Origin: an uncultured Pelagibacteraceae bacterium | GTDB lineage: Bacteria > Pseudomonadota > Alphaproteobacteria > Pelagibacterales > Pelagibacteraceae | Length of the DNA stretch: 54,446 nucleotides | Direction: 5' to 3' | NCBI GenBank assembly: GCA_902583645.1 | Contig: CACHWQ010000009.1 | Location: forward strand, 1 to 54,446 | In this document: piece by piece, positions 7,150 through 29,906 of the stretch | Position numbering within the stretch: the first letter of the stretch is position 1 | Layout: every line of letters begins with the position of its first letter | Program-made: the position numbers and the translations under genes | The notes under the pieces: generated by a model | The model's database searches: none | Told to the model about the DNA's origin: nothing | What the model saw: only the letters and a program-made list of their open reading frames with translations

Positions 7150-8151
7150 TTATATCCAGTTAGGAAATGGTAAGCCTTTTTCTTGAAGAAATTTCTTATT
7201 AAACAGCTTGGAGTTGTATTTATCTGATCGATCGCAAAGAATTGTTACAATAGTTTTTCCAGGTCCTAACTTTTTACCCAGTCTTATAGCTCCAGCTATA
7301 TTTACTCCGCAGCTTGTACCCAAACTTAAACCTTCATTTTGAATTAGATCGTACAAAATTGGTAATGACTCTTGATCACTTATAGAAAATGCACCATCAA
7401 TTTTGGCTTCTGCAAAATTTGCTGTTACTCTACTTGAGCCAATTCCTTCTGTAATTGAATTACCATCACCTTTAAGTTCTCCATTTTCTATATAATTGTA
7501 TAAAGAAGATCCAGCAGGATCTGATAAATAAATTTTTACATCTTTACTTTTTTCTTTTAAATAACTACTAACACCCGCTATTGTTCCACCTGTACCTGAT
7601 GCGCAAACAAATGCATCAACCTTACCTTCAGTTTGATCCCAAATTTCAGGTCCAGTAGATTCGTAATGTCCTTTCGAATTAGCAGTATTATCAAATTGGT
7701 TAGCCCAAACCACGCCATGATTGTTTGAACTTTTTAATTCATCAGCAAGTCTTCCTGCAACTTTTACGTAATTGCCATCGTCTTTATAGGGTTTTGGTGG
7801 CACTAATCTTAAATCTGCACCAATATTTTTAAGCATATCTTTTTTTTCTTGTGTTTGATTATCATTCATTACAATAACTGTTTTATAACCAACTGAATTT
7901 CCAATTAAACACAGTCCAATACCTGTATTTCCAGCTGTTCCCTCAACTATAGTTCCACCTTTAGATATGAGTTTTTTCTCCTCAGCATCTTTAATTAATG
8001 CTAAGGCTGCTCTATCTTTTACTGATCCACCGGGGTTTAAATATTCTGCTTTGCCGTAAATGTTACAACCAGTTATTTCTGACGCTGCTTTTAATTTAAC
8101 TAAAGGAGTATTTCCAATTCCTGAAATAAAATTATTCTGAAAATTCTTCAT
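7150..8151 (-). CDS. cysK: Cysteine synthase (O-acetylserine sulfhydrylase)
   Basis: A 333-residue PLP enzyme. The PLP lysine is in [12 protein letters not shown] (Lys45), the phosphate and substrate loop is [11 protein letters not shown], and the glycine-rich PLP phosphate site is [11 protein letters not shown]. The enzyme makes L-cysteine from O-acetylserine and sulfide. The C-terminal [17 protein letters not shown] is typical of one CysK subgroup. It overlaps the upstream cysE by 20 bp, giving a two-step serine-to-cysteine operon. Sulfide-oxidising genes (SQR, persulfide dioxygenase) sit just upstream, so the same block both uses and removes sulfide. A cystathionine beta-synthase-like role is less likely. 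Confidence 0.92.
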
Positions 8152-8716
8152 TTTTTTCGTCGTTGTTTATACCATAGGGTTTAAATTCTTCAGTTGTTGT
8201 GCCAACATTCTTAGCAGGTATACCTACCATAACTCCATTCTCCGGGACATCTTTTGTTACAACAGCATTTGCACCTATCTTTGCATTTTTTCCTACTGTA
8301 ATTGGTCCTAATACTTGCGCGCCAGACCCAACTACAACATTGTCTTGAAGAGTAGGGTGTCTTTTGACTTCTCTTTGGTCGTTGGAATTTATACTTGGTG
8401 AAATTCCACCAAGGGTTACCATATGATAAATTGTGACATTATCTCCAATGTCTGAAGTCTCTCCTATTACAACTCCCATACCATGATCAATAAATAAATT
8501 TTTACCAATCCTTGCTTTAGGATGTATTTCTATTCCAGTCATAAATCTTGAAAATTGTGAAATTATTCTCGCTATTAAATCGAATTTTGCAATTGCAAAA
8601 AAATTTGCAATCTTATGCATAAACACAGCCTTTACACCTGGATAAGTTAAAATTACAGCTAGTTTTGATTTAGCTGCTGGATCTCTTTCAATAATAGACT
8701 CTAAAAATTCGTTCAT
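8132..8716 (-). CDS. cysE: Serine O-acetyltransferase
   Basis: A 194-residue protein of the short (EpsC-type) serine acetyltransferase group. It starts with a helical part ([20 protein letters not shown]) and continues into a left-handed beta-helix of hexapeptide repeats. Active-site segments are [37 protein letters not shown] and [15 protein letters not shown]. It transfers acetyl from acetyl-CoA to serine, making the CysK substrate. Its 3' end overlaps cysK by 20 bp. The short C-terminal tail ends EEFSE and lacks the usual final isoleucine, so classic CysK complex formation is uncertain. Confidence 0.92.
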
Positions 8717-8752
8717 AAAATTTTATTTTTTAGGATTAACTAAAAACTACTT

Positions 8753-8866
8753 CTAGCAACAGCAAGAAGTGTCTTCTGGTTTACATAAACACTCTCTGCC
8801 GCTTTCGCAAGCGCAAGCGTCATTAGAGCAGTTTGCACATATGCATTTAGGGTTATTGCATGCCAT
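8753..8866 (-). CDS. Cysteine-rich metallothionein-like mini-protein
   Basis: A 37-residue ORF from ATG at 8866 to TAG at 8753-8755. Eleven residues are cysteine, at positions 3, 8, 10, 13, 18, 20, 26, 28, 35, 36 and 37, arranged as three CxC motifs and a terminal CCC. It has almost no hydrophobic residues. This composition is what is expected of a small metallothionein or metal/sulfane-sulfur binding peptide, although it does not fit the SmtA/BmtA type known to me. It lies alone between cysE and the persulfide dioxygenase gene, both on the same strand. Expression is not proven, but codon frame and cysteine spacing argue against chance. Confidence 0.7.
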   Translation of the reverse strand: MACNNPKCICANCSNDACACESGRECLCKPEDTSCCC

Positions 8867-8919
8867 AAGAAAGATATAAATATTTATTGATTAATTACAA
8901 TACTTTAATTTATCGCTGA

Positions 8920-9612
8920 TTATAACTGTTCTAAAGTAAGACCTTTTACGTTTGCAGGGACTGCAACATCCATCATTTTAGGATTTGCTAGATTTAGATT
9001 TTCCATTATTTCTGCGTATTGTTCTTTTGAACCAACTTGAAGCCTTGGATTATTGTTTTTTTCTTTTTCAATTGTGGAAAATTTTTTACCATTGTAATCG
9101 TGCGCAGGATAAACAAGTGTATTTTCAGGCAACTTTAATAGTTTATTAAATAAGGAGTCGTACGCATCATATGAACTACCATTTTGAAAGTCTGTTCTTC
9201 CAGTTCCATTAATCAGCAAAGTATCGCCTGTAAAAACTCTATCTTTCATTAAGTAACTATAAGAACAGTCAGTATGACCAGGGGTGTACATTGCCACAAG
9301 TTCGATATTTTCAATATTTATTTTTTCATTATCTTTAATTTTTAAATCAATTACTTCTGATTTTGAATTTTCACCCATTATTCTTGTACAGCTTGTTCTT
9401 TTATTAAGTTCGTTTAGTGCAGTAATGTGATCCGCATGAATATGGGTGTCAATTACTTTTACTAATTTTAACTTTAATTTTTCTAAAATTTTTAAATATT
9501 CATCAGTATGCTCAATTACTGGGTCAATAATTAAAGCTTCTCTACCTTCACCGCTAGATATTACGTAAGTGTAAGTTGAAGATTTAGTATCAAAAAGTTG
9601 TTCAAAAATCAT
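8920..9612 (-). CDS. ETHE1-like persulfide dioxygenase (MBL fold)
   Basis: A 230-residue metallo-beta-lactamase-fold protein with DTHIHADHITA (His57, His59, Asp61, His62), a second-site TPGHTDCSYS, and the ETHE1-type GTGRTDFQNGS and YPAHDYNGK segments. ETHE1-type enzymes use one iron (two His and one Asp) to oxidise glutathione persulfide to sulfite. It is followed closely upstream by a sulfide:quinone oxidoreductase gene on the same strand, the expected partner that makes the persulfide. Glyoxalase II is the main alternative; the GRTDFQ motif favours ETHE1. Confidence 0.86.
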   Translation of the reverse strand: MIFEQLFDTKSSTYTYVISSGEGREALIIDPVIEHTDEYLKILEKLKLKLVKVIDTHIHADHITALNELNKRTSCTRIMGENSKSEVIDLKIKDNEKINIENIELVAMYTPGHTDCSYSYLMKDRVFTGDTLLINGTGRTDFQNGSSYDAYDSLFNKLLKLPENTLVYPAHDYNGKKFSTIEKEKNNNPRLQVGSKEQYAEIMENLNLANPKMMDVAVPANVKGLTLEQL

Positions 9613-9646: not shown

Positions 9647-10888
9647 TTATTTTTCAAGTGCTTTATGATTTGGTTTTGCCCATTCTTTTCCTTTAAACAT
9701 TACATTCCATTGTAACCAAGGAAACAGTTTTGATTTCATTTGCCAGTACAAAGAACTCGGTTTTGTTGGATCGAAAGGAAAGCTTGGTGTGACCTTTCCT
9801 GCATAACAAAATTCTGCTAGCATTACTTTTCCATACGCAACAGTTAAAGGACATGCACCATAACCATCGTAATGTCTGTAACTTTCAGAGGATTTTTTAT
9901 AATCTTTAACAATATTATGTGCAACAATAGGAGCTTGTTTTCTAACTGCAGCTCCAGTTTTAGCATTTGGAGCATTCATAACATCTCCCAGACTATAAAC
10001 ATTTTCATATTTAGTGTGTCTTAATGTACCAACCTTATGATCAACATCAACCCAACCACCAGCATCAGCAAGTGGACTATTTTTTACAAAATCTGGCGAT
10101 GTTTGAGGAGGTGTTACATGAATAAAATCAAACTTTTTGGTAACTTCTTTTGAATTACCGTCTTTATCTGATTGTTTAAACACAGCTTCTTTTGACTGTC
10201 CATCAACGGATATTAAATTATGTTGGAAACTTCTTTTTATTCCATAAGAGTCACAAATTTCGTTTAAAGGTCCTTGAAAATGAGGCACTCCAAATATAAC
10301 TGGCTTAGCACATAAAAATTCTAAATTACTATCACTAAGCTTTCCTTTTTTCTTTAAATGATCTGCTGCTAAATAAGCTATTTTTTGTGGAGCACCTGCA
10401 CATTTTATTGGCATTGGTGGTTCAGTAAATAATAAAGTTCCACCGTCTAATTGTTTCAAACAGTCCCAAGTGTAAGTAGCCATCTCAGCCGAATAATTTG
10501 TACAAACATTATTTTTTCCTAAATTTTCTTTTAAACCTGCAACACCGTCATAGTTTAATTTTAAACCAGGACAAACAACAAGATAATCATAAGTGTATGT
10601 TCCTCCATTAGTTTTTAATGAATTTGAATCTGGTAGAAATTCTTCAGCGTACTCCTTTATCCATTTTACATAACTTGGCATAACTGAAGACATTGGTTTT
10701 ATTGTATCGTTTACATTGTAAGCCCCAGCGCCGACCAAAGTCCAAGCAGCTTGATATAAAGATTTTTCCGAAGGCTCTACAATTGATATTGTTAAATCTG
10801 ATTTTAAACTATTTATTCTTGAGGCAACAGCTATTCCTGCGCACCCACCTCCTACTATTAATACGTTAGAGTGATTTGATTTTTCCAT
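9647..10888 (-). CDS. sqr: Sulfide:quinone oxidoreductase, type II
   Basis: A 413-residue flavoprotein. The N-terminus has the FAD Rossmann motif LIVGGGCAGIAVASR. The redox cysteines expected for the eukaryote-like type II SQRs are seen at Cys163 in PIKCAGAPQK and Cys346 in GYGACPLTV. Other matching landmarks are HVTPPQTSPD, GGWVDVD and YSLGDVMNAPNAKTGAAV. It oxidises sulfide to sulfane sulfur and passes electrons to quinone at the inner membrane; the Trp/Phe-rich C-terminus (SLYWQMKSKLFPWLQW) fits membrane attachment. It heads the SQR-persulfide dioxygenase pair and is divergent from a peroxiredoxin gene. Confidence 0.9.
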   Translation of the reverse strand: MEKSNHSNVLIVGGGCAGIAVASRINSLKSDLTISIVEPSEKSLYQAAWTLVGAGAYNVNDTIKPMSSVMPSYVKWIKEYAEEFLPDSNSLKTNGGTYTYDYLVVCPGLKLNYDGVAGLKENLGKNNVCTNYSAEMATYTWDCLKQLDGGTLLFTEPPMPIKCAGAPQKIAYLAADHLKKKGKLSDSNLEFLCAKPVIFGVPHFQGPLNEICDSYGIKRSFQHNLISVDGQSKEAVFKQSDKDGNSKEVTKKFDFIHVTPPQTSPDFVKNSPLADAGGWVDVDHKVGTLRHTKYENVYSLGDVMNAPNAKTGAAVRKQAPIVAHNIVKDYKKSSESYRHYDGYGACPLTVAYGKVMLAEFCYAGKVTPSFPFDPTKPSSLYWQMKSKLFPWLQWNVMFKGKEWAKPNHKALEK

Positions 10889-11728: not shown

Positions 11729-12421
11729 TTATCTATACTTTTTCATAGATATTTCTGCTAACAACAAATTAGGATCAATAAATATTTTTGACTCTTTAAC
11801 TCTTTTGAAAGATTTATAAGCAAATATTGCAATTGGTATTTCAGTGCATCCTAATATTATTTTTTTACACTTCATTTTGAGAAGATAATTTACTGCAGGT
11901 CGTAATGCTCTTTCTGCATCTTTTACTTTACCCATTTTCACAAGGTTGATTGATTTATTTACATTTTTCTTTTGAATTGATTTGCTTGGACTTATTAAAC
12001 TGAAGTTTTTGTCAAAGTATTTGTTATAAACTTTTGTTTCAAGTGTTGCTTCAGTGCAAAGAATTCCAATTTTAGAATTATTTTTACATTTCTTTTTTGT
12101 ATGCAAAAATACTTCTTTTGGCATGCTTAATATTGGAATTTTAATATTTTTTTGAATATCTTTATGCCAATAATGTGCTGTATTACAGGGCATCACTATA
12201 AATTTGCATTTATTTTTTTGAAGAAGTTTACACCCTGCAACTAAGCTTTTAAGAACATTTTTATATTTTTTTAGATTTTTAATTCTATTTGGGATTTTCG
12301 ATTTATTATAAAGCATGAACATAGGATATTTTTGATCAATTTTTCCTCTATTGATCACGGCTAGTTTGTTACAAAAATCTAACCCTGCTCTGGTTCCCAT
12401 TCCACCTAGAATTCCAATCAT
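11729..12421 (-). CDS. Aspartate/glutamate racemase family protein
   Basis: A 230-residue protein of the PLP-independent Asp/Glu racemase (RacX/YgeA) family. It begins GILGGMGTRAGLDFC. The two catalytic cysteines lie in VMPCNTAHYW and ILGCTEIPIA. The enzyme would interconvert D- and L-amino acids using a two-thiol proton exchange. Sequence alone does not separate aspartate racemase from broad-specificity RacX-type enzymes. It is convergent with the peroxiredoxin gene and divergent from a LysE-type exporter, which suggests an amino-acid context. Confidence 0.85.
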   Translation of the reverse strand: MIGILGGMGTRAGLDFCNKLAVINRGKIDQKYPMFMLYNKSKIPNRIKNLKKYKNVLKSLVAGCKLLQKNKCKFIVMPCNTAHYWHKDIQKNIKIPILSMPKEVFLHTKKKCKNNSKIGILCTEATLETKVYNKYFDKNFSLISPSKSIQKKNVNKSINLVKMGKVKDAERALRPAVNYLLKMKCKKIILGCTEIPIAIFAYKSFKRVKESKIFIDPNLLLAEISMKKYR

Positions 12422-13259: not shown

Positions 13260-14546
13260 TTAATTTAAATATCCGTATTTTCTTAATCGAACATCGCCGG
13301 TTCTTGCGTGTGCTTCCATACCTTCATATCTTGATATTCTTGCGGCCGCAGAGCCAACCTCTTTTGTAGATTCTTTAGTCATTCTTTGAAAACTTAATGT
13401 TTTAATAAATTTTCCTACAAACAAACCACCTGTATATTTACCAGCCCCTTTTGTAGGTAAAATATGATTGGTTCCTGAACATTTATCTCCATAAGCAACA
13501 GTAGTTTCTTCTCCAATAAATAATGATCCATAATTTTTTAGTCGATCATGGAACCATTTTAGATTTTTTGTTTGCACTTCTAAGTGTTCTGGAGCATATT
13601 CATCACTGATTTTTGCCATCTCTTCATCAGTATCACAAAGAATTACTTCACCATAATCTCTCCAAGCTGCTTCAGCGCTTGTTCTCGGTAATTCTGGAAG
13701 TTCAGAAATTAGTTCTGGAACTCTTTTCATAACTTGTTCAGCGAGTTTTTTGCTTGTTGTATAAAGCCATGCAGGTGAATTATATCCATGCTCAGCTTGC
13801 CCAACTAAATCAACTGCTACGATTTCTGGGTCTGCAGTTTCGTCTGCGATTATCGCAATTTCAGTTGGTCCAGCAAATAAATCTATACCAACCTTTCCAA
13901 ATAGAATTCTTTTTGCTTCCGCTACAAATTGGTTACCAGGACCAACTAATATATCTGCTGGTTTATTTCCGAACAAACCATAAGTCATTGCAGCAATAGC
14001 TGGAACACCACCAAGATTTAAAATTACATCTGCTCCACACAGATTTGCAGTATAAATAATAGCAGGATGTGCACCTAATTTTTCTTTAGGAGGACTACAA
14101 GCAATTATATTTTTAACACCAGCTACTTTTGCAGTGGTTACACTCATGACAGCAGATGCTATGTGAGCATATCTTCCTCCAGGTATATAACATCCTGCAG
14201 TATTCACAGGGATTAATTTTTGTCCAGCATAAAGTCCTTTTGATAACTCGACTTCAAAATCTTGACCATAATTTTTTAATTGCGCTTCTGCAAATTTTCT
14301 TACTCTTTCATATGAAAATTGAATGTCATCTTTGGTTTTTTGATCAAGTGATTTATTTATTTGATCAATTTTTTCTTTAGAAACTATTATCTCACCATTA
14401 AATTTATCAAATTTTTTTGTTAGTTCTTTACATCCAACTTCTTTAGATTTTTCCAATTCAGATAACAATTTTTGAACTATATCTCGAGTTTTTGTGTCAT
14501 CCGTCGAGGCAGTTTTGACTGCTTTTTTTAAATATTGAATTCCCAT
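13260..14546 (-). CDS. hisD: Histidinol dehydrogenase family, likely HpsN-type sulfopropanediol dehydrogenase
   Basis: A 428-residue HisD-fold NAD enzyme. Zinc and catalytic residues are kept: Gln250 and His253 in GQAEHG, the YAPEHLEV glutamate/histidine pair, the Asp in YGDKCSGTNH, and the final His in GMEAHARTGD. The signature YIPGGRYAHIASAVMSVTTA and AWRDYGEVILCDT resemble what I recall of HpsN, which oxidises (R)-2,3-dihydroxypropane-1-sulfonate to (R)-3-sulfolactate, more than biosynthetic HisD. No his genes are nearby. The neighbour is a Pta-type acyltransferase, and a taurine transport block follows about 9 kb on. The family is certain; the sulfonate role is an inference. Confidence 0.8.
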   Translation of the reverse strand: MGIQYLKKAVKTASTDDTKTRDIVQKLLSELEKSKEVGCKELTKKFDKFNGEIIVSKEKIDQINKSLDQKTKDDIQFSYERVRKFAEAQLKNYGQDFEVELSKGLYAGQKLIPVNTAGCYIPGGRYAHIASAVMSVTTAKVAGVKNIIACSPPKEKLGAHPAIIYTANLCGADVILNLGGVPAIAAMTYGLFGNKPADILVGPGNQFVAEAKRILFGKVGIDLFAGPTEIAIIADETADPEIVAVDLVGQAEHGYNSPAWLYTTSKKLAEQVMKRVPELISELPELPRTSAEAAWRDYGEVILCDTDEEMAKISDEYAPEHLEVQTKNLKWFHDRLKNYGSLFIGEETTVAYGDKCSGTNHILPTKGAGKYTGGLFVGKFIKTLSFQRMTKESTKEVGSAAARISRYEGMEAHARTGDVRLRKYGYLN

Positions 14547-14571
14547 TTTGGCTTTATTTATATTTTGATTA

Positions 14572-15483
14572 TTAATCTAATGCAACCACCGCTGCTGCTA
14601 TAGATGCCATTCTTGCAGTTGCTTCATCTGATCTACTTGTTATTACTATTGGAACTTTTCCACCAACTACAACTCCGGCTGCACATGCACCCATAAAATA
14701 TATCATCATTTTCACTAATGCGTTACCTGCTTCAACATTAGGAACTAATAATACATCAGCCTGGCCAGCAACTGAATTTTTAATACCTTTAATTCCTGAT
14801 GATACTTTAGAAACACTATTATCAAAAGCTAATGGTCCAAATACATCTGCTTTAAGATTTTCTTTTTTAGCAAGCTCTGTTATCTCTTTTGCGTCAATAG
14901 AACTTTGAACGCTTTCTAAAACTTCCTCTGTTGCGGAAAGTACAGATACTTTTGGTCTTTCAATACCAATTCTTTGACAGAAATTAATAACATTTTTTAG
15001 AATATGCATTTTTGTTTTAACGTTTGGAGAAACATTTAAAGCACCATCAGTAATAATTATAGGTCGATCATTTTTTTCTAATGTCATGTGCCAGATATGA
15101 CTTAGTCTAGTTTTACCTAATAAATTATATTCTTTTTTAATTACTTCTTTCATTAAAACATCTGTATGGATATGACCTTTAACAATAATTTTTATTTTAC
15201 CCTGAGATGCAAGTTTTGTGGCTATTTTAGCTGTCGAATTCTCATCAGACTCATGAATAATTTTATAATTTGAAATATCAAATTTTAGTTCTTCTGCGCA
15301 TTTTTTAATCTCATTTTTGTCACCAATTAAAATAGGATTTATTAAATTTTCTTTCACAGAATCTATTACAGAAAGCATTGGTAGCATTTTTCCAGCATTA
15401 ACAATCCCTGCTGGGATATCTTTTTTTTTATGTGCAATACTTAATAGATTAATAGGACAAATTATTTCTTTATTTGAAAGCAT
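14572..15483 (-). CDS. pta: Phosphate acetyl/butyryltransferase (Pta/Ptb family)
   Basis: A 303-residue protein of the PTA/PTB family: VKGHIHTDVLMKEV, IITDGALNVSPNVKTK, VFGPLAFDNSVS, and the C-terminal VPNVEAGNALVKMMIYFMGA followed by SRSDEATARMASIA. The length is that of the catalytic domain alone. It would convert acetyl phosphate plus CoA to acetyl-CoA. In sulfonate degraders, Pta uses the acetyl phosphate made by sulfoacetaldehyde acetyltransferase (Xsc). No xsc or ackA gene is in the window. It lies 25 bp upstream of the HisD-family gene on the same strand, so the two are likely co-transcribed. Confidence 0.84.
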   Translation of the reverse strand: MLSNKEIICPINLLSIAHKKKDIPAGIVNAGKMLPMLSVIDSVKENLINPILIGDKNEIKKCAEELKFDISNYKIIHESDENSTAKIATKLASQGKIKIIVKGHIHTDVLMKEVIKKEYNLLGKTRLSHIWHMTLEKNDRPIIITDGALNVSPNVKTKMHILKNVINFCQRIGIERPKVSVLSATEEVLESVQSSIDAKEITELAKKENLKADVFGPLAFDNSVSKVSSGIKGIKNSVAGQADVLLVPNVEAGNALVKMMIYFMGACAAGVVVGGKVPIVITSRSDEATARMASIAAAVVALD

Positions 15484-15491
15484 AAGTAATT

Positions 15492-15520
15492 TTTACATAT
15501 ATTTACGATGTGTATATAAT
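15492..15520 (+). promoter_or_regulatory. Candidate sigma70 promoter for the BASS transporter gene
   Basis: TTTACA (15492-15497) and TATAAT (15515-15520) with a 17-bp spacer, in the 55-bp divergent gap between pta and the BASS gene. The ATG at 15539 is 18 bp after the -10 box, so the leader would be only about 11 bases. Confidence 0.5.
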
Positions 15521-15538
15521 AAGTTAATATGGCATAAA

Positions 15539-16387
15539 ATGGAAATTGTAACTAAAATAGCGCCAATCGCATTGGCTTTGATAATGCTAACTTTAGGTTT
15601 AGGACTAACATTTAGAGATTTTACTAGAGTCGTTAATCAACCAAAGGATTTTATTTTAGGAGTTATTTGTCAGCTAATTATTCTTCCAATTGTTGCTTTT
15701 ATATTAATAAAAATATTTAAAACACCATTAGAACTAGCATTAGGAGTCATGATTATAGCAGCAGCCCCAGGTGGAGTAACCTCAAATGTACTAACAAGAT
15801 TCGCAAAAGGAGATGTTGCACTATCGGTTTCATTAACAGCCATAATAAGTTTAGTAAGTATAATTTCAGTTCCTTTTATAGTTTTTAAATCGGCGGATGT
15901 TCTACAGGTAAATTATTTAAGTAAAGAAATTTCAATGATTGGGATTTCAATAAAGATGTTTTTAGTTGTCACTTTACCTGTAATTATTGGAATGATTATT
16001 AGAAAATTTGCAACTATATTTATTTCATCTAATGAAAAAATAATTCAAAGAATTTCACTTTTACTATTTGTTATTGTTTTTTTAGCAATTTGGATTGAGG
16101 AGTGGGAAAATATTACATCTTATTTAAAACAAGCAGGAGTTATTACCTTAGTTTTAAATATAGTGATGATGATTATTGGATACTTTATAGCTAAGATATT
16201 TGCGTCAGGAATAGAGCAAAGAAAATGTATTTCTTTAGAATGCGGTTTACAAAATGGAACTCTAGCAGTTTTTGTAGCATCTCAAATTTTTAATGATGTT
16301 ATATATCTTGTACCCACGGCAGCATATGCTCTCATAATGTTTATAACTTCAATATTTTTTGTTATTTTTATAAAGAATAAAAATTAA
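15539..16387 (+). CDS. Bile acid:sodium symporter (BASS) family transporter
   Basis: A 282-residue membrane protein with 9-10 helices. The frame is open further upstream, but that part overlaps the divergent pta gene, so the ATG at 15539 is taken as the start. Family motifs are LALIMLTLGLGLTFRDF, the AAPGGVTSNVLTRFAKGD sodium-site region, and ECGLQNGTLAVFVA. BASS proteins import organic anions with sodium. Its divergent partners are pta and an HpsN-like gene, so a small carboxylate or sulfonate is a possible substrate. A second, more diverged BASS gene is at 34194. Confidence 0.86.
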   Translation: MEIVTKIAPIALALIMLTLGLGLTFRDFTRVVNQPKDFILGVICQLIILPIVAFILIKIFKTPLELALGVMIIAAAPGGVTSNVLTRFAKGDVALSVSLTAIISLVSIISVPFIVFKSADVLQVNYLSKEISMIGISIKMFLVVTLPVIIGMIIRKFATIFISSNEKIIQRISLLLFVIVFLAIWIEEWENITSYLKQAGVITLVLNIVMMIIGYFIAKIFASGIEQRKCISLECGLQNGTLAVFVASQIFNDVIYLVPTAAYALIMFITSIFFVIFIKNKN

Positions 16388-20515: not shown

Positions 20516-21577
20516 TTACATTTTTTCCATTATCCATAAACTTTTTTTGCTTAAAAAATAAATCTTACCATTTTTAGGATGTACTTGAATATCTCTTATT
20601 CTCCCGATTTTTCCTTGAAAAATAATATCTTCTTCTACACTTTCTAAATTATTAAAATCTAATTTTCTTAAAGACATATCTTTTAAAGAGGTAATTAATG
20701 CATGGCCATTCCATTCTTTGAATTCTTCTCCTTTATAAATTGTTATTGCACTAGTTGCTATTGAAGGAACCCAGTATTGTATTGCTTTTGTAAAACCAGG
20801 TTTCCATTTTGGACCAATTTTAGTTCCACTATAATTTGTTCCTCCCCATCCTAAAATTTTCCAACCATAATTTTCACCTTTTTTAACTTCACCGAACCAA
20901 TCGCCACCTTTTGCACCGTGATTACTAATGTAAATTTTTTCATCGAAGGTTGAAAAAGTAAGTCCTTGTGGATTTCTTACTCCTATTTGATAAATTTCTG
21001 GCAACCAATCTTTCTTATCTAAGAATTTTGGATTATCTTTTGGAATTTTACCATTTAAATAAATTCTTATAATGCTACCTGGATGCTTTGAGGCGTCTTG
21101 CGCAATCATTCCTTGTCCTCTTTCTCCAACAGACGCAAACAAATATTCTCCCTGTATAGCTAACCTTGATCCAAAATGGTATGGAGAATCAATTGGTGGA
21201 TAGGCTTGAAAAATATTTTTAAATTCGATTTTGCCTCTATTAAAGTTACCTCTTGCAATAGAAGTGCTGGTTTTATAGTTACCTCGATTTTCTGTATAAG
21301 AAACCCAAACTATATTATCTTTGAAAAGAATATCTAATAACCCTCCTTGTCCATATTCTAAAACATTAAGATTGTGATCTATAGTTTTTATATTTTTATT
21401 TTTAAGATTTATAAGTTTAATCTTTCCTGATTTTTCAGTAATAAGTAATTCTTCTTTATTTATAAACGTTGATCCCCATGGCTCATTTAGATCAACAATA
21501 TTTCTTATAGTGAATTCACTAGCTTTTAAAGGGTTGGTTGTAAAAAAAAATAAAAAAAAAATTAAAATTTTCCTCAT
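20516..21577 (-). CDS. Exported PQQ-dependent sugar dehydrogenase-like (YliI/Asd type) protein
   Basis: A 353-residue six-bladed beta-propeller protein with a Sec signal peptide (MRKILIFFLFFFTTNPLKA). Family landmarks are LNEPWGSTF, the catalytic-histidine region around YHFGSRLAIQGEYLFASVG, RNPQGLTFS, ISNHGAKGGDWFGEVKKGEN and YGWKILGWG. Soluble aldose dehydrogenases of this type bind PQQ and oxidise sugars in the periplasm. Whether this organism makes PQQ cannot be seen here. Its start overlaps the stop of the Ldh-family gene by 4 bp. Confidence 0.84.
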   Translation of the reverse strand: MRKILIFFLFFFTTNPLKASEFTIRNIVDLNEPWGSTFINKEELLITEKSGKIKLINLKNKNIKTIDHNLNVLEYGQGGLLDILFKDNIVWVSYTENRGNYKTSTSIARGNFNRGKIEFKNIFQAYPPIDSPYHFGSRLAIQGEYLFASVGERGQGMIAQDASKHPGSIIRIYLNGKIPKDNPKFLDKKDWLPEIYQIGVRNPQGLTFSTFDEKIYISNHGAKGGDWFGEVKKGENYGWKILGWGGTNYSGTKIGPKWKPGFTKAIQYWVPSIATSAITIYKGEEFKEWNGHALITSLKDMSLRKLDFNNLESVEEDIIFQGKIGRIRDIQVHPKNGKIYFLSKKSLWIMEKM

Positions 21578-22572
21578 AGATTTTCAAAATCTTTTAAAAT
21601 AGCGTGAGGTATTTTAATTTTTCCTTTCATATTTTTTTTATATCTTTTGTATTTATTTTGACCAGGGTACAAAATATCACTTGTTCCCTTTGTTTTAGGT
21701 AATTTCTTAACTCTTTTTATATTTTCCTTAATCCTTTGACTATAGTTTCCAACAAATAAATTTGGTTTAAATACTATGAATAAATGACCTACATTCTGTG
21801 GTCCGCTAAAGTCATCGAATGGATCTCTGACTTTTCCTGCATGATTGCTTCCAGTCAAAACTCCACTTAAAATATCTACCATCCAAGCAAGACCAGATCC
21901 TCTAAATCCTGCGATTGGTAATTGTACACCCTTTAACGCCTTTAAAGCATCGGTGGTAAGTTGACCGTTTTTATCAAGCGCAGTTCCTTTTGGTATGCTC
22001 CTTTTTGTTTTTGCAGCTAATCTTATTTTACCTCTATTGATTATTGAAACAGAAGCATCAAAAATAAATGGGACTTTTAATGAGGTTGGAGCACCAAAGC
22101 AAATTGGGTTTGTTCCAAATAATGCTTTTTTTGATCCAAATGGAGCTAATGCGGGAGGTGCGTTGGTGAAGCATAGTGCTATAAGATTTTTTTTAACAGC
22201 TTGCTCTGCGTAATATCCTGATAATCCATAGTGACCACTATTTTTAATTCCAATAAAACCTAATCCAGTTTTTTTAGCACTTTTAATCGCCTGTTTAATT
22301 GCTACATCTGCAGCTACAAATCCAATGCTATTATCTGCATCTACATGAAAAATTGAATTAGATATTTTTTTTAATCTTATTTTAGGTTTTGGATTAATTA
22401 CTTTCTTTTTAATTCTATCACAATACATTTTTACTCTTGAAATACCATGAGAACTAGCGCCCACTAACTCTGCATTTATAATAGCATCTGAACAAATTTT
22501 TGCATGTGTTTTACTTAGTTTATAATTCATAAAAATTTCTGTAAGTTTTTTTTTTAATTTATTTATCTTCAT
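21574..22572 (-). CDS. Malate/L-lactate/ureidoglycolate dehydrogenase family (Ldh/YlbC type)
   Basis: A 332-residue NAD(P)-dependent oxidoreductase of the LDH2/MDH2 family. Landmarks are AELVGASSHGISRVKMYCDR near residue 34, the catalytic-site region KNSGHYGLSGYYAEQA, FTNAPPALAPFGSKKALFGT, and AGFRGSGLAWMVDILSGVL. Members reduce 2-oxo acids or oxidise malate, L-lactate, sulfolactate (ComC) or ureidoglycolate; the substrate here is not evident. It overlaps the PQQ gene by 4 bp and the GT17 gene by one base. A 3-sulfolactate role is conceivable given the organosulfur genes nearby, but unsupported. Confidence 0.83.
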   Translation of the reverse strand: MKINKLKKKLTEIFMNYKLSKTHAKICSDAIINAELVGASSHGISRVKMYCDRIKKKVINPKPKIRLKKISNSIFHVDADNSIGFVAADVAIKQAIKSAKKTGLGFIGIKNSGHYGLSGYYAEQAVKKNLIALCFTNAPPALAPFGSKKALFGTNPICFGAPTSLKVPFIFDASVSIINRGKIRLAAKTKRSIPKGTALDKNGQLTTDALKALKGVQLPIAGFRGSGLAWMVDILSGVLTGSNHAGKVRDPFDDFSGPQNVGHLFIVFKPNLFVGNYSQRIKENIKRVKKLPKTKGTSDILYPGQNKYKRYKKNMKGKIKIPHAILKDFENL

Positions 22573-23474: not shown

Positions 23475-25400
23475 TTATCCTTTTCCTCTCCATGGAATTG
23501 TTTTATCTATTATTTTCCTTAAAGTAACATCAAACAAGAGTCCTAGCATACCCATTATAAAAATTGTTATCCATATAACTTCATACTGGAAATATTTTTT
23601 TGCAACATTTTCCACAAATCCAATTCCAGTTGTGCCAGCTAAAAATTCTGCTGCCACCAACGTTCCCCAGCACATACCAACTGCTACTCGTATACCTGTT
23701 AAAATTTCAGGAAGGGAATTTGGAAAAATTACATGTCTTAATATTTGTTGTTTTGAAGCACCTAATGAGTGAGCAGCATGTATTTTAGACAATTGAGTCC
23801 CCGATGCTCCCGCTCTTGCTGAAATTATCATTATCGATAGAGACACCATAAATAATAAAAATACTTTTCCAGTGTTATCAATTCCTAAAACCGAAATAAT
23901 AAGTGGGGCCCAAGCGAGTGGAGGAACAGGTCTGTAAAGTTCAATTAAAGGATCAAAAAATCCTTTTGCAAATCTATTTAATCCCATAAATAGACCAAGA
24001 GGTACACCAATTAATATTCCAAAAACTAATCCGAGAAAAACTCTTAAAAAAGAATCCCAAATATGTCCATAAGGCACAGGTACTTTAAACAAATTAAAAT
24101 CACCAGTTACAATTTTTAGAACTCCACCTTTGAAGTTCTGTTTTACTATTCCATCTTTATTGTGAACAGGATATTCACCCGGTAAAACATCTGCAATCCA
24201 GTCTGGCAAAATAAAGCCAATCATTTTGCTCACATCAACCATTTGTATCCACAATAGAGGAATATCTTTGTAACCCACACTTGGTTTTGACATTAATATG
24301 AATTTATTGAAAGTATCGGACGGTTTAGGTAGCCATCTACCTGATCCTTGTTCTGAACAACTAGGACCACTAGCAACGATAGTTCCTGCAGGAAATAAGA
24401 AAATATCTATTAATCTCAATCCACCTTGTTCTTTTTTTTGAGCATTATCAAATTTGACAATTGCTGCCTGCATCTTATCTAATGAATTTGGAGGATAGAT
24501 ACTTGCAAATTCAATTCTTCTAGCAATCTTAACAATATTCTTTGCGTATGTTGAGGTCACTTCCTCACTATCACTTAAGTTTTTTCTATAAGATTTAATT
24601 TCCTCTTTTAGTTCTTTAATCCTGCTTTTAAATTGAGGGTTATGATTTCTTAACTTAAAAAATTCATCACTTATTAAATTTAATTCTTGGGCGGCGGTGT
24701 GAAACTTTAAACCCCTAGATGTTGCAGGAACCAAAGGTACCTCTAATGTATTTTCAATAGATCCTGACCCTGCATCTACCTTAGTGATACCCCAACCACC
24801 TTCTTCATTTACAGCTTTCAGTCTTTCATTGAGCTCTTGCTCGGTTTCAAACGGGTAATCAGATTTTTGGAAATTTTCAGTTAATAGATTAATTTTTCCA
24901 GTGATATCATCTATTTTTAGTTGGGTCTCAAGTTCTAATAAATCTTCATTTGTAAGTAATGGGATAAGTTGATTAGTTTTACTTATGTAACTAATTAGTA
25001 TTGTTTTTTGTTGGTTATTTAGTTCCTCAGAATTTTGAATTTCATTTTGAATTAATTTTAAATTTTTATTCTCCTTTTTGATTTGTGAAGTGCTTTTGAA
25101 CTCTCTTTCCTTAATTGGAAATTGATATTTCAATCCGAGAAGAGAGTCATTCACTTTTGCAACTTGGCACAGCTCATTTGCAGATTTTGGATAAAATCCT
25201 TTAGCAATATCCCAAGAATAATAGAGCCAAATTAAAAGTAAAAAGCTACTTCCAACAATTACCCAGTGAGTACCACCCAAAGCTCTTTCTGGATTTCCAA
25301 ATACTGCATCTACTTTTTCAGTTCTTATTAATCTTCGCCCATAAAGAATACAGCCAACTACAGCGAAGAATATTAGAAAAGTTAATATTTGAGTTAACAT
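23475..25400 (-). CDS. tauC: Taurine/sulfonate-type ABC transporter permease with large N-terminal extension
   Basis: A 641-residue protein. The last 200 or so residues (about 440-641) are a standard TauC/SsuC permease, with helices and the EAA loop SLGASKQQILRHVIFPNSLP. About 370 residues precede this, two to three times the usual size: helices near 2-20 and 46-65, then a mostly charged, coiled-coil-rich region (70-320) predicted to be periplasmic, and a further hydrophobic part (DIFLFPAGTIVASGPSC). It imports a sulfonate or nitrate-like ion with TauB and TauA. Its ATG immediately follows the stop of tauB. The extension may be a second substrate-interacting domain. Confidence 0.85.
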   Translation of the reverse strand: MLTQILTFLIFFAVVGCILYGRRLIRTEKVDAVFGNPERALGGTHWVIVGSSFLLLIWLYYSWDIAKGFYPKSANELCQVAKVNDSLLGLKYQFPIKEREFKSTSQIKKENKNLKLIQNEIQNSEELNNQQKTILISYISKTNQLIPLLTNEDLLELETQLKIDDITGKINLLTENFQKSDYPFETEQELNERLKAVNEEGGWGITKVDAGSGSIENTLEVPLVPATSRGLKFHTAAQELNLISDEFFKLRNHNPQFKSRIKELKEEIKSYRKNLSDSEEVTSTYAKNIVKIARRIEFASIYPPNSLDKMQAAIVKFDNAQKKEQGGLRLIDIFLFPAGTIVASGPSCSEQGSGRWLPKPSDTFNKFILMSKPSVGYKDIPLLWIQMVDVSKMIGFILPDWIADVLPGEYPVHNKDGIVKQNFKGGVLKIVTGDFNLFKVPVPYGHIWDSFLRVFLGLVFGILIGVPLGLFMGLNRFAKGFFDPLIELYRPVPPLAWAPLIISVLGIDNTGKVFLLFMVSLSIMIISARAGASGTQLSKIHAAHSLGASKQQILRHVIFPNSLPEILTGIRVAVGMCWGTLVAAEFLAGTTGIGFVENVAKKYFQYEVIWITIFIMGMLGLLFDVTLRKIIDKTIPWRGKG

Positions 25401-26198
25401 TTAATTATCTTTCCCCATAATTTCCTCTTCCATGTTCCATATCATGGACAATATCTCTTCTCTTTTTGATGAAAATTCTTTGTTTTTTTTAATTTCTCGC
25501 AAGTCTTCTTTCAAACCCATTTCTGCAAAAGGAAGATTGTATTCTTTATGTATTCGACCTGGTCTTGGCGCCATAACATATAATCTTTCACCAAGCAACA
25601 AAGCCTCCTCAACAGAGTGAGTGATTAAGATAATTGTTTTTCCTGTCTCTTTCCAAATTTTTAAAACTAATGATTGCATCTTTTCTCTTGTTAGCGCATC
25701 AAGCGCACCCAAAGGTTCGTCCATAAGAATTAAGTCTGGGTCATTAATTAGACATCTTGCAAGAGCAACTCTTTGCTGCATACCACCGGATAATTGATAA
25801 GTTGGCGTATTTCCAAATCCTTTAAGCCCAACTATATCTAACCATTCCTCAACTTTTTTTGCGGTAGTCTCAGGATTTTCTTTTTTCATCCTAAGTCCAA
25901 AATTCACATTTTCAGAAACAGTTAACCATTCAAACAAAGCCCCTTGTTGGAAAACCATTCCTCTATCTACTCCTGGTCCATTTATTTCATTATTACCTAA
26001 AGTTATAGTTCCAGATGTTGGTCTAATAAAACCAGCGGCAATATTTAGTAATGTAGTTTTTCCACATCCAGATGGACCCAGTACTGTTAAAAGCTCACCT
26101 TTTTTGATTGTAAAGTTTAAATCTTTTAATGCATGAACAGTCTCTCCCTTTGGAGATTTAAAAATCATGTTTAGATTTTGAGAAACTAAATCACTCAT
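25401..26198 (-). CDS. tauB: Taurine/sulfonate-type ABC transporter ATPase
   Basis: A 265-residue ABC ATPase: Walker A GPSGCGKTT near residue 40, Q-loop VFQQGALFEWL, signature YQLSGGMQQRVALAR, Walker B DLILMDEPLGALD, and switch LITHSVEEALLLG. The length and motifs fit the TauB/SsuB/NrtD group. Its stop abuts the tauC start, and tauA lies upstream with a stem-loop between. It energises import of taurine or a related sulfonate. Confidence 0.9.
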   Translation of the reverse strand: MSDLVSQNLNMIFKSPKGETVHALKDLNFTIKKGELLTVLGPSGCGKTTLLNIAAGFIRPTSGTITLGNNEINGPGVDRGMVFQQGALFEWLTVSENVNFGLRMKKENPETTAKKVEEWLDIVGLKGFGNTPTYQLSGGMQQRVALARCLINDPDLILMDEPLGALDALTREKMQSLVLKIWKETGKTIILITHSVEEALLLGERLYVMAPRPGRIHKEYNLPFAEMGLKEDLREIKKNKEFSSKREEILSMIWNMEEEIMGKDN

Positions 26199-26233
26199 AA
26201 GGAAAAGTTTATACCTAAATTTTCATAAAAAAA

Positions 26234-26263
26234 ATAGGCACCAATTATTAAACTGGTGCCTAT
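26234..26263 (-). terminator. Stem-loop with U-tract between tauA and tauB
   Basis: A perfect 10-bp stem (ATAGGCACCA with TGGTGCCTAT; arms 26234-26243 and 26254-26263) with a 10-base loop. Read on the minus strand it is followed by seven U. It stands in the 87-bp gap between the substrate-binding-protein gene and the ATPase gene. It is likely a leaky terminator or a 3' stabiliser that lets tauA be made in excess of tauBC. Confidence 0.8.
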
Positions 26264-26285
26264 CAATTTTTTTATACCTTAAAAA

Positions 26286-27227
26286 TTATAAAGGTAAAAA
26301 ACTTGTATCTACGTTACCTTTAGGAGTTCCCATACCTTTTAAAAAAGCATCAAGATTTCCACTTTTCATAGACTTTTCTGTTTCAGCCGGCGTTAGAAAT
26401 TTAAAACCGCTTAAAGTTTCTTTCATATCACCAACTTTCATTTCTGAAGCTTTTGCCATAGAATTCATATCGCTTTTTCCTGCTCTATATCTTGCATTTG
26501 CTTCATGAGTCACTTCAATAAAAGTTCTAAGCATACCAGGATTTTCCTTCATAAACTTTGTAGTTACCGAAGTAATATCTATACCAAGTATACCAGCGTC
26601 TCTAGCCTCTTGTACTGTTAATAATCTAGATCCAACTGCTGTTGCTGCTTTAATAGAGTTTCCTCCAAATAGACATGACATTACAACATCACCGCTTACT
26701 AATGCAGCAGCTCCTTCTTCAGGATCCATTTGAATTATATCCATTTTACTTCTATCAGCGCCAACAACTTTCATACTTTCATCAAAAACATACTCAGCCA
26801 TTGTTCCTAGAGGAACAGCAACTTTTTTACCTTCTAGTTCAGTAGCATTAGCTTTTGTAATACCAGATGCATTCGAAGTCACACAAGTTGTTCCGCCCAT
26901 TCCATATTCCATAGCTATATCTACAAGCTTAATTGGTGCTTTAGATTTAACTGCGTTAATGAAAGGTACTAATCCCTGTGAATAGGAAATATCAATGTCG
27001 CCAGCAAGCATTGCATCAGTCATTGCTCCACCGTTAGTGAAGTTAGTCCATTTAACTGGTACACCTAAAGCTTTAGCAAAACTTTTCTTTTGCATGTCCT
27101 CAAGGTTAGGACTTGGCCATTCTAGAAAGTAAGCAACTCTTACTTCGTTTGCTGCAGAATTTGCAACAGAAATAGTTAAGTTAAGAGCAACAAAACAACC
27201 TAGAAGAAAACTAATTATTTTTTTCAT
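26286..27227 (-). CDS. tauA: Taurine-type ABC transporter substrate-binding protein
   Basis: A 313-residue periplasmic binding protein with a Sec signal peptide (about residues 1-25, ending SVANSA). The mature part reads VRVAYFLEWPSPNLEDMQKK, AMLAGDIDISYSQGLVPFIN, and has the conserved GTMAEYVFDESM loop of TauA/SsuA proteins. Ligand preference cannot be read directly; taurine is favoured by the divergent aminotransferase and alanine dehydrogenase genes. A good ribosome site (aagggg) precedes the ATG. This gene opens the tauABC operon. Confidence 0.86.
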   Translation of the reverse strand: MKKIISFLLGCFVALNLTISVANSAANEVRVAYFLEWPSPNLEDMQKKSFAKALGVPVKWTNFTNGGAMTDAMLAGDIDISYSQGLVPFINAVKSKAPIKLVDIAMEYGMGGTTCVTSNASGITKANATELEGKKVAVPLGTMAEYVFDESMKVVGADRSKMDIIQMDPEEGAAALVSGDVVMSCLFGGNSIKAATAVGSRLLTVQEARDAGILGIDITSVTTKFMKENPGMLRTFIEVTHEANARYRAGKSDMNSMAKASEMKVGDMKETLSGFKFLTPAETEKSMKSGNLDAFLKGMGTPKGNVDTSFLPL

Positions 27228-27284
27228 TTTTCCCCTTTTTCATTATTATTAATAAGTATATTTAAGTTCAAAATTTAGCTGATG

Positions 27285-27298: not shown

Positions 27299-27319
27299 GT
27301 TTAATTTAAGCTTAAGGAT

Positions 27320-27426: not shown

Positions 27427-28773
27427 ATGAGCACAGATAATAAAACAAAAATTCCAAATTCTTTAAATGAGCATTGGATGCCATTTACATCTAATAAAGA
27501 TTTTAAAGAAAGACCAAGATTAATTACAGAAGCTAAAGGATGTTATTTAAAAAATCATGAAGGCAAAACGATGATAGACGCAAGTTCAGGCTTGTTCTGC
27601 AATCCTTTAGGACATGGAAGAAAAGAAATTATCGAAGCAATTACAAATCAATTAAATGTACTTGATTATTGCCAACCTTTCCAACAAGGTTTTGGTGGAT
27701 CATTTGATTTAGCAACAAAAATTTCAAAACACACACCAGGAAATTTAAATAAAATATTTTATACAATTTGCGGTTCAACTGCAGTTGAAACTGCAATTAA
27801 AATAGCAATAGCATATCATAAGGCAAGAGGAGAAGGACATAGATACAGATTTGTTGGCAGAGAAAGAGCTTACCATGGCATGAATATTGGAGCTACATCT
27901 GTTGGAGGAATGATTAATAACGTAAAAACTTTTGCAAGTGTTTTAATGCCTGGCGTGCTTCATATGAGGCATACTCATTTGCCAGAGCATAGATTTGTAA
28001 GCGGTCAGCCTGAAACTGGTGCTGAAATGGCAGATGATTTAGAAAGAATTTGTACAAATTTTGGAGCAGAGAATATTGCTGCATGTATAGTGGAACCAGT
28101 TGCAGGATCCACTGGTACGCTTGTTCCACCAAAAGGATATTTACAAAGATTAAGAGAGATTTGTGATAAGCATGGAATACTTTTAATATTTGATGAGGTA
28201 ATTACAGGCTGGGGAAGAATGGGCTCAGCATTTGGTTCACAAGAGTTCGGTGTTACACCAGATATTATGACAATGGCAAAAGCCACAACAAATGGAATAA
28301 GTCCAATGGGTGTTGTTGCATGTAAAGATGAAATTTACGATGGGATAGTAGATAATGCTCCAAAGGGTACAATAGAATTATTTCATGGTTATACTTATTC
28401 TGGAATTCCTATTTCAGTTGCAGCTGCATTAGCAGTTCAAGATATTATTGAGAAGGATGATATTTTTAAAAGAGCTAAAGAAATGTCTCCTTATTTTCAG
28501 GAAGGTTTATTTTCATTAAAAGATATCGATGTTGTAGATAATATAAGAGGATATGGAATGATGGGTGGAGTTGATATTAAAATGGATAAAAAACCTGGTG
28601 TCGCAGGTCTTACAACTTTTAAACACTGCTATGAAGCAGGAGTAAATTTTAAAGCTACAGGAGATTGTCTAATTATAGCACCAATGTTTATTTCAGAAAA
28701 AAAACACATTGATGAAATTATAGAAAAACTAAGAAAAGGGATAACAAACTATTCAAAAAGTAAAAAAAATTAA
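27427..28773 (+). CDS. Omega-amino acid (taurine or beta-alanine):pyruvate aminotransferase
   Basis: A 448-residue class III PLP aminotransferase. It starts with the family's HWMPFTSNKDFKERPRLI, has GLFCNPLGHGRKEI, LIFDEVITGWGRMG, and the PLP lysine in MAKATTNGISPMG (Lys285). The closest type known to me is omega-amino acid:pyruvate aminotransferase, which takes amino groups from beta-alanine or taurine and makes alanine from pyruvate. Taurine is favoured here because tauABC is divergent and alanine dehydrogenase, which would recycle the alanine, follows 17 bp later. It would give sulfoacetaldehyde. Beta-alanine remains possible. Confidence 0.88.
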   Translation: MSTDNKTKIPNSLNEHWMPFTSNKDFKERPRLITEAKGCYLKNHEGKTMIDASSGLFCNPLGHGRKEIIEAITNQLNVLDYCQPFQQGFGGSFDLATKISKHTPGNLNKIFYTICGSTAVETAIKIAIAYHKARGEGHRYRFVGRERAYHGMNIGATSVGGMINNVKTFASVLMPGVLHMRHTHLPEHRFVSGQPETGAEMADDLERICTNFGAENIAACIVEPVAGSTGTLVPPKGYLQRLREICDKHGILLIFDEVITGWGRMGSAFGSQEFGVTPDIMTMAKATTNGISPMGVVACKDEIYDGIVDNAPKGTIELFHGYTYSGIPISVAAALAVQDIIEKDDIFKRAKEMSPYFQEGLFSLKDIDVVDNIRGYGMMGGVDIKMDKKPGVAGLTTFKHCYEAGVNFKATGDCLIIAPMFISEKKHIDEIIEKLRKGITNYSKSKKN

Positions 28774-28790: not shown

Positions 28791-29906
28791 ATGAAAATTG
28801 GTGTTCCTAAAGAAATAAAACCACAAGAAAATAGAATTGGTCTTACACCTGAGAGTGTGAAAGATCTTATTAAAAATGGTCATGAAGTATTAGTAGAAAA
28901 TAATGGTGGCTATGAAGCAGGCTTTGAGAACAAGCAATATGAGGATGCTGGCGCTAAGATAGTAAATAAAGCTGAAGATATATTCAACGATTCTGAAATA
29001 ATTGTAAAAGTTAAAGAACCTTTATCAAGCGAAGTTCAAATGATAAGAGAAGATCAAATTATTTTTACATATCTACATCTTGCAGCAGCAAAAGAACTTA
29101 CTAATGGATTAATCAAATCAAAAGGCGTTTGTATTGCATATGAAACGGTTACAGATAACAATGGAAGACTACCGCTGTTAGCACCGATGAGTGCTGTTGC
29201 AGGAAGAATGTCAGTTCAAGCCGGCGCACATTGTTTAGAAAAAAATCAAAAGGGAAGAGGTGTCTTATTAGGAGGAGCTCCAGGAGGTGATCCTGCTGAT
29301 GTTGTAATACTTGGAGGTGGAGTTGTTGGGGAAAATGCGGCAGTTATTGCAACAGGAATGAGAGCAAAAGTTCATGTTGTAGACAAATCCCAAGAAAGAC
29401 TTGATCAACTTACAAATATGTTTGGAGACAAAATAATTCCTGAGCTAAGTGATAAATGTGATTTAAATAAATTAATTGCTGAGTGTGATTTATTAGTAGG
29501 GGGAGTTTTGATACCTGGAGCAGAAGCACCAAAATTAGTTACAAAAAAAATGTTAAAAAACATGAAACGAGGTTCGGTAATTGTTGATGTTGCTATTGAT
29601 CAAGGTGGATGTGTAGAGACTAGTAAACCGACTACTCATGCAAATCCAACATATATAGTTGATGATATTGTTCATTATTGTGTAGCTAATATGCCTGGTG
29701 GAGTTCCAAGAACCTCAACTTTTGCACTGAATAAAGCAACATTACCATTTTTAAATAAACTTGCAAAACATGGATATAAAAAAGCTCTCAGTGAAGATAA
29801 AAATTTTCTTGCAGGATTAAATGTTTGCAAAGGTGATGTGACATATAAAGCAGTAGCAGATGTTTTTGGACATAGCTATGTTTCACCTGATAAAGCAATA
29901 AATTAA
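28791..29906 (+). CDS. ald: Alanine dehydrogenase
   Basis: A 371-residue enzyme matching alanine dehydrogenase over its length: MKIGVPKEIKPQENRIGLTP, YLHLAAAKELTNGL, the NAD motif VVILGGGVVGENAAVIATG, VDVAIDQGGC and NMPGGVPRTSTFALNKATLP. It converts alanine to pyruvate, ammonium and NADH, regenerating the pyruvate used by the preceding aminotransferase. A strong GGGAGG site precedes the ATG. Second gene of the operon. Confidence 0.95.
   Translation: MKIGVPKEIKPQENRIGLTPESVKDLIKNGHEVLVENNGGYEAGFENKQYEDAGAKIVNKAEDIFNDSEIIVKVKEPLSSEVQMIREDQIIFTYLHLAAAKELTNGLIKSKGVCIAYETVTDNNGRLPLLAPMSAVAGRMSVQAGAHCLEKNQKGRGVLLGGAPGGDPADVVILGGGVVGENAAVIATGMRAKVHVVDKSQERLDQLTNMFGDKIIPELSDKCDLNKLIAECDLLVGGVLIPGAEAPKLVTKKMLKNMKRGSVIVDVAIDQGGCVETSKPTTHANPTYIVDDIVHYCVANMPGGVPRTSTFALNKATLPFLNKLAKHGYKKALSEDKNFLAGLNVCKGDVTYKAVADVFGHSYVSPDKAIN

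Follow-up and report, generated by a model that had tools for sequence, protein, structure and literature searches.

An HpsN-type dehydrogenase gene next to a small phosphotransacylase gene in a Pelagibacteraceae genome, a likely part of organosulfonate catabolism

We analyzed a stretch of 54,446 nucleotides (the window) from an uncultured Pelagibacteraceae (SAR11) bacterium, contig CACHWQ010000009.1 of assembly GCA_902583645.1, with a focus on a HisD-family gene and its two neighbors. The original prediction had read the three genes as a candidate module for dihydroxypropanesulfonate (DHPS), made of an HpsN-like dehydrogenase, Pta and a BASS transporter. The genome (G000) comprises 1.06 Mb in 39 contigs at 82% completeness, and the window is its contig C9. 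All three genes were confirmed as open reading frames (ORFs) of the window by the ORF list and translations, and they match their Pfam profiles (Histidinol_dh PF00815 at 445 bits against a cut-off of 27, PTA_PTB PF01515 at 115 and SBF PF01758 at 123). The hpsN and pta genes share a strand with a gap of 25 bp, pta being upstream. The ORF of the BASS gene is listed with a TTG start at 15317, and an in-frame ATG at 15542 gives a protein of 281 aa. Because the ATG start suits the family and the listed start overlaps pta, the gene was taken as 15542-16387, which places its start 58 bp from that of pta in divergent orientation. The three genes are as follows.

13260..14546, minus strand: hpsN, HpsN-type (R)-DHPS 3-dehydrogenase of the HisD family (428 aa; GRYAH at residues 124-128)
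14572..15483, minus strand: pta, small PTA_PTB-family phosphotransacylase (303 aa)
15542..16387, plus strand: BASS (SBF family) transporter, loosely associated (281 aa; divergent from pta)

The assignment of the HisD-family gene as HpsN-like, and not as a histidine gene, is well supported by sequence comparisons. In a sequence search of the PDB, the E-values were 1.2e-159 for Cupriavidus HpsN, 5.2e-150 for an (R)-DHPS dehydrogenase and 2.4e-73 or weaker for HisD entries. BLAST identity is 57.1% over 422 residues to the C. pinatubonensis plasmid gene annotated hpsN and 32.7% to E. coli HisD. The HpsN-type proteins of Paracoccus seriniphilus and Leisingera caerulea are 61% and 57% identical to the window protein, respectively. 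In a 35-row tree, the window protein and 20 other SAR11-family rows join the Cupriavidus, Paracoccus and Leisingera proteins (support 100/99). The HisD proteins of E. coli, Neorhizobium and the genome itself fall across starred branches (100/99), with a long-branch warning that applies most to the HisD of the genome itself. The HpsN-specific motif is described as G-R-Y-A/S-H with a sulfonate-binding His, and Glu318-His319, the Zn ligand Asp352 and Lys353 are given as catalytic site residues of the Cupriavidus enzyme (PMC11382572). GRYAH occupies residues 124-128 of the window protein, where His128 corresponds to Cupriavidus His126, and the motif is absent from the alignment rows of the genome's own HisD and E. 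coli HisD. The catalytic Glu-His (APEHLE) and Asp-Lys (YGDK) pairs are retained as well, along with the NH and EGMEAHA metal-site segments. The HpsN features seen in the original prediction were thus borne out, and the tree it called for places the protein with HpsN.

The motif is widely kept among relatives. We compared the best 80 of at least 581 named-relative loci, a sample biased to close relatives and drawn entirely from Pelagibacteraceae or Pelagibacterales (SAR11), of which 68 carry GRYAH and 12 GRFAH. A further 66 loci, which include duplicates from the same genome, comprise 58 with GRYAH, five with GRFAH and three with GRYNN. An apparent stop codon in the hpsN of G063 is the regular terminus of that gene. 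The GRYNN proteins (L046, L047 and L151, from genomes G123, G101 and G069) are HpsN homologues about 75% identical to that of the window, and their genes adjoin pta and BASS. The loss of the sulfonate-binding His suggests a possible substrate change, and the GRYNN sub-branch would then mark a further shift in substrate.

The window genes are likely part of the organosulfonate catabolism of this bacterium, as judged from family membership, motifs, phylogeny, linkage and the presence or absence of partner genes. By analogy with the solved enzyme, HpsN would oxidize R-DHPS via sulfolactaldehyde to R-sulfolactate, a four-electron oxidation that consumes two NAD+ (PMC11382572). The chemistry would rely on Zn, His and Glu as in HisD, with His128 binding the sulfonate. 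R-sulfolactate could then be cleaved by SuyAB to pyruvate and sulfite. Taurine would yield sulfoacetaldehyde through a Tpa-type aminotransferase together with Ald, and sulfoacetaldehyde, mainly from taurine, would be converted by Xsc to acetyl phosphate and by Pta to acetyl-CoA. Both required enzymes outside the window are encoded on another contig, C13. Xsc, at C13:22249-23976, scores 970 bits (cut-off 676.4) and is adjoined by the divergent suyA and suyB genes. SuyA shares 50% identity with its Cupriavidus counterpart and 47% with that of Paracoccus, and SuyB 66% and 69%, respectively.

The role of Pta is narrowed by its genomic context. The protein exceeds the cut-off of PRK08190 only, scoring 58 of 311 bits with the TIGR00651 pta model, and a search of the own genome with Pta at E<=1e-20 returned only Pta itself. 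No acetate kinase (PF00871) was detected in any of the 147 family genomes at E<=1e-5, with the control found in 9 of 14 genomes. Hence, Pta most likely acts on acetyl phosphate from the Xsc reaction. A route from DHPS to Pta via ComDE and Xsc was considered and rejected. Sulfopyruvate decarboxylase ComE (TIGR03846) exceeded its cut-off in none of the 147 genomes, with weaker matches in 53. The own-genome match reaches 109.9 of 221.5 bits, and its score of 368.7 bits with TIGR03297 (cut-off 312.5) marks it as a phosphonopyruvate decarboxylase. Given the presence of SuyAB in addition, Pta acting on DHPS-derived carbon is unlikely, and Pta probably does not serve DHPS. The proposal that Pta processes acetyl phosphate from sulfoacetaldehyde therefore stands for the Xsc route and is unlikely for carbon from DHPS. 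At L178:1074-3989 (G000 contig C8), genes for the phosphonopyruvate decarboxylase, a PEP-mutase-like protein and a relative of iron alcohol dehydrogenases stand in a row, which looks like phosphonate biosynthesis.

The position of hpsN next to pta becomes clearer with the remaining sulfonate-related genes of the window.

11729..12421, minus strand: Asp/Glu-racemase family protein, CuyB-like (cysteate racemase; 159.8 bits, under the cut-off of 190)
21574..22572, minus strand: ldh2, Ldh_2-family dehydrogenase, L-sulfolactate dehydrogenase-like (245.6 bits, under the cut-off of 500)
23475..25400, minus strand: TauC-like ABC permease (641 aa; under the model cut-off)
25401..26198, minus strand: TauB-like ABC ATPase (under the model cut-off)
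26286..27227, minus strand: TauA/SsuA-like binding protein (under the model cut-offs; nearest solved relative 6ssy)
27427..28773, plus strand: AptA-type omega-aminotransferase, candidate Tpa (over the AptA model cut-off; a Tpa role is presumed)
28791..29906, plus strand: alanine dehydrogenase Ald (over the cut-off)

The taurine block spans 23475-29906, and its near end lies 8 kb from pta. The solved relative closest to the TauA/SsuA-like protein, 6ssy, is a taurine-binding protein (E 2.5e-13). Open-licence literature offered nothing usable on the specificity of SAR11 TauA. The Ldh_2 protein could link sulfopyruvate with sulfolactate. Among the named-relative loci with at least 1.2 kb upstream, pta is directly upstream of hpsN and co-directional in 63 of 79, with gaps of 20-95 bp. 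Family loci came from 38 genomes picked among 62 with HpsN, and the same arrangement occurs in 21 of the 37 with enough flank. The window's genus contains an unbroken tauA-tauB-tauC-ldh2-pta-hpsN run in L039 and L042. In L034 and L035, tauC and ldh2 are separated by a sugar-dehydrogenase-like gene in an otherwise identical run, and several relatives have ldh2 immediately upstream of pta. In the window, BASS and other genes split this run, which makes the taurine block seem distant. The link to a taurine block, originally placed nine kilobases away, holds in that the block directly joins pta-hpsN in some relatives, and the distance needs correction to 8 kb. We suggest that shared membership in a C2/C3 sulfonate gene set, together with tauABC and a candidate sulfolactate dehydrogenase of the Ldh_2 type, explains why pta and hpsN are neighbors. 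The two genes may also be co-transcribed. Searches of open-licence literature gave no description of the pta-hpsN-tau linkage.

The arrangement differs among genera. Across 20 compared loci, pta directly precedes hpsN in nine, and a TRAP large permease gene takes this place in six (L038, L044 and L050-L053) and lies 1.6-4.1 kb from hpsN in four more. A medium-chain dehydrogenase gene follows hpsN in seven, and the L038 copy is 38% identical to Cupriavidus HpsP. The TRAP-type hpsN loci belong to genera other than that of the window, and in several of them pta is located some kb away with tau genes, often including ldh2. The TRAP-hpsN-hpsP-like run of L038 and similar loci in other genera contrasts with a statement in PMC11131964 that the hps genes of SAR11 do not form a single operon. 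In L048 and L045 (G002 and G013), a CuyA homologue directly adjoins pta, in the usual place of ldh2.

Gene content across the 147 family genomes follows the same pattern. HpsN was present in 62 genomes (at E<=1e-120, four partial matches included), Pta in 63, Xsc in 65, SuyB in 64, TRAP in 55, BASS in 90 and the racemase in 44. For Xsc, 70 genomes matched at 1e-100 and the 65 over the cut-off were used, so that G116 and G140, with sub-cut-off pieces, were counted as without. SuyB matched in 66 genomes, of which G065 and G143 contain only a longer relative (~506 aa) and were set aside. At least 126 genomes matched TRAP at 1e-60, yet only the 55 at 76% identity or above were used, the others shown being a paralogue at ~41-45%. 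The BASS count includes two genomes at 32-33% identity and one fragment of 66 residues. HpsN was paired with Pta in 54 genomes, Xsc in 54, SuyB in 52, TRAP in 52 and BASS in 49. Six genomes contain HpsN without both Xsc and SuyB, one of them (G140) with a sub-cut-off Xsc piece. BASS was the weakest partner of HpsN (p 1.6e-4, against 1e-25 for TRAP, in Fisher tests that ignore shared ancestry).

TRAP is most likely a better candidate than BASS for the transport of DHPS. The TRAP large permease encoded on C13, the contig with Xsc and SuyAB, is 94% identical to the one directly preceding hpsN in genus g4. SAR11 and Rhodobacterales TRAP proteins share 21-32% identity, which is weak ground for treating them as orthologues. 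BASS could still form a dedicated DHPS uptake-and-oxidation unit with HpsN, as its gene is divergent from pta here and lies within 2 kb in this orientation in 27 of 71 named-relative and 8 of 32 family loci. However, hpsN is missing from 41 of the 90 genomes with BASS (19 in genus g2), and BASS from 13 of the 62 with hpsN. Together with an association with HpsN far weaker than that of TRAP, this makes such a unit very improbable. BASS is accordingly a weak candidate as a DHPS carrier. The divergent orientation in the original prediction was correct, and its suggestion that BASS carries an organic anion finds little backing for DHPS. The proposed three-gene module is retained for the HpsN-like gene and its pairing with pta, but BASS membership is not supported and Pta acting on DHPS carbon is unlikely. 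A second BASS-family transporter is encoded at 34194-35036, ~35% identical to the one adjoining pta. Pta and BASS have plasmid relatives according to a database listing.

The identity of the HpsN substrate leaves more room for alternatives. The window gene might be a biosynthetic or redundant histidinol dehydrogenase, as a member of PF00815 and TIGR00069 scoring well over the hisD cut-off (432 against 243.8 bits). Yet TIGR00069 passes both HisD-family genes of this genome, and hpsN-type genes in Rhodobacterales TRAP clusters are likewise annotated hisD. The second gene, at G000:C1:37258-38439, scores 418 bits with TIGR00069, is the sole further PF00815 gene of the genome and is 34-35% identical to the window protein. 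Its neighbor is murA (TIGR01072, 420 bits, over the cut-off), and we infer that it is the biosynthetic hisD. The window gene is therefore not the only hisD candidate, a point the original prediction had left to be checked. As supposed there, no other his genes were found among the 30 window ORFs scanned of 60 listed. The second hisD, the clade, the GRYAH motif and the PDB scores all speak against a biosynthetic HisD, which was rejected, and a biosynthetic or redundant histidinol dehydrogenase is exceedingly unlikely.

Another reading is that the HpsN-type enzyme mainly oxidizes cysteinolate (to cysteate), sulfolactaldehyde or a further C3 sulfonate, with DHPS as a side substrate. The racemase-like gene ~840 bp beyond hpsN and TauABC-like uptake would belong to that route. 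The racemase resembles CuyB, sits between ldh2 and tauC in L038 and in some named-relative loci (such as L090, L091 and L092). A CuyA homologue adjoins pta in sister-genus genomes, and the efficiency of the Cupriavidus enzyme is given as ~12-fold higher with sulfolactaldehyde than with R-DHPS (PMC11382572). Several observations that count against DHPS as the substrate, or against the reading as organosulfonate catabolism more broadly, point the same way or loosen the case. A Ruegeria HpsN-clade gene, nested among the HpsN references, adjoins a gene annotated D-cysteine desulfhydrase (cuyA-like), a racemase and an ABC transporter, with 67% identity between the transporter ATPase and the window TauB-like protein. 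Neither clade membership nor the motif therefore settles the substrate. The SAR11 HpsN PU1002_02401 has a Km of 106 mM for R-DHPS and a kcat/Km of 1.7e-3 per mM per s in Table 1 of PMC11131964. The same table gives E. coli HisD the same Km for DHPS, the preference for R-DHPS over L-histidinol is only 2.2-fold, and promiscuous activities in SAR11 are mentioned. PU1002_02401 is probably the orthologue of the window HpsN, judging from gene spacing. If so, its poor kinetics suggest that DHPS may not be the true substrate. Prompted by these kinetics, we considered that the published protein could be a mis-assigned plain HisD, and dropped this as unproven. In G026, HpsN and the best HpsO-like gene are 54 kb apart, which fits the published locus tags if these advance in steps of five, a guess. 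Adjoining the window hpsN, no hpsO, hpsP, hpsU or DHPS transporter gene was recognized, although such clustering is not universal. C13 carries TRAP genes and short-chain dehydrogenase relatives 27-28% identical to HpsO. The closest solved relative of Pta is a phosphate butyryltransferase, and sequence does not fix the acyl group. HpsN occurs without Pta in eight genomes, Pta without HpsN in nine, Pta without Xsc in 10 and Xsc without Pta in 12, where many incomplete drafts make absence a soft observation. The small Fisher p-values are inflated by shared ancestry.

These points do not favor the other C3 sulfonates uniformly. CuyA was absent from the own genome at E<=1e-25, on which ground a CuyA route there was rejected, and occurred in 11 of the 147 genomes. 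The racemase is under the CuyB cut-off and 22.5% identical to the Ruegeria racemase. The tree is undecided, as the Ruegeria gene nests with HpsN of Paracoccus and Leisingera and not within the SAR11 group. A different main substrate is unlikely overall. Oxidation of DHPS by HpsN, within a broader sulfonate gene set, is the reading we retain. A tentative variant would have the window's genus keep hpsN with tauABC-ldh2-pta, instead of the TRAP-hpsN-hpsP cluster of sister genera, as a single C2/C3 sulfonate unit that is centered on sulfolactate and regulated jointly. A HpsN substrate shifted to sulfolactaldehyde or cysteinolate would then explain the poor DHPS kinetics. We regard this as doubtful.

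SAR11 bacteria are among the most abundant bacterial groups in the ocean, and the linkage of pta, hpsN and tau genes predicts that taurine and DHPS use are jointly regulated. A firm hpsN assignment helps the reading of transcript data, since HpsN and HisD of this genome both pass the commonly used hisD model. As HpsN, Xsc and SuyAB of SAR11 are already in print, the advance lies in arrangement and detail, and the grouping of hpsN with taurine genes is a modest addition to a known SAR11 enzyme type. The module represents SAR11 sulfonate catabolism of an ordinary kind whose gene order is informative, and the BASS gene is loosely attached at best.

Other parts of the window contain further genes of possible interest. 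Positions 7150-9612 encode a PALP-family protein and a hexapeptide transferase (cysK-cysE look-alikes) with a metallo-beta-lactamase-fold protein, a group also near hpsN in some relatives and possibly a sulfur-assimilation neighborhood. A distant relative of type III sulfide:quinone reductase follows at 9647-10888 (202 bits against a cut-off of 525) and was seen in one of the 80 named-relative hpsN loci within the fetched flanks. Adjoining the taurine block, 30379-32823 encodes an FAD oxidase fused to a GcvT-like protein, and 43340-45373 a fusion of class II aldolase and short-chain dehydrogenase.

DHPS is described as an organosulfur compound of global abundance, and transcripts and enzyme activity of SAR11 HpsN have been published (PMC11131964). 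SAR11 is described as a likely DHPS degrader (PMC8269247), with suyAB and xsc as core or near-core genes of Pelagibacteraceae (PMC12636525). The SAR11 HpsN PU1002_02401 belongs to the same enzyme family as the window protein, and the TRAP-hpsN-hpsP-like runs of sister genera depart from the gene organization reported alongside it (PMC11131964). Some Alphaproteobacteria degrade taurine through a Tpa-Xsc-Pta route. The Tpa-type aminotransferase, Ald, Xsc, Pta and Tau-like ABC transporter are all present here, with the difference that Xsc and pta are on separate contigs and that Pta is of the small PTA_PTB type, far under the TIGR00651 cut-off. The Rhodobacterales hps-type clusters on plasmids of P. 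seriniphilus and L. caerulea share the order TRAP-hpsN-dehydrogenase with sister Pelagibacteraceae genera, but the SAR11 TRAP proteins are only distantly similar and the own-genome TRAP and hpsN genes are on separate contigs. A further close comparison is the C. pinatubonensis cluster hpsRNOUP-suyAB, whose HpsN (PDB 8v35) resembles the window protein in overall identity (57% over 422 residues), the GRYAH motif, and the catalytic Glu/His and Asp-Lys residues, with SuyAB encoded in both genomes. The window differs from it in having pta, and no recognized hpsO, hpsP or hpsU, next to hpsN, and in that suyAB is on another contig.

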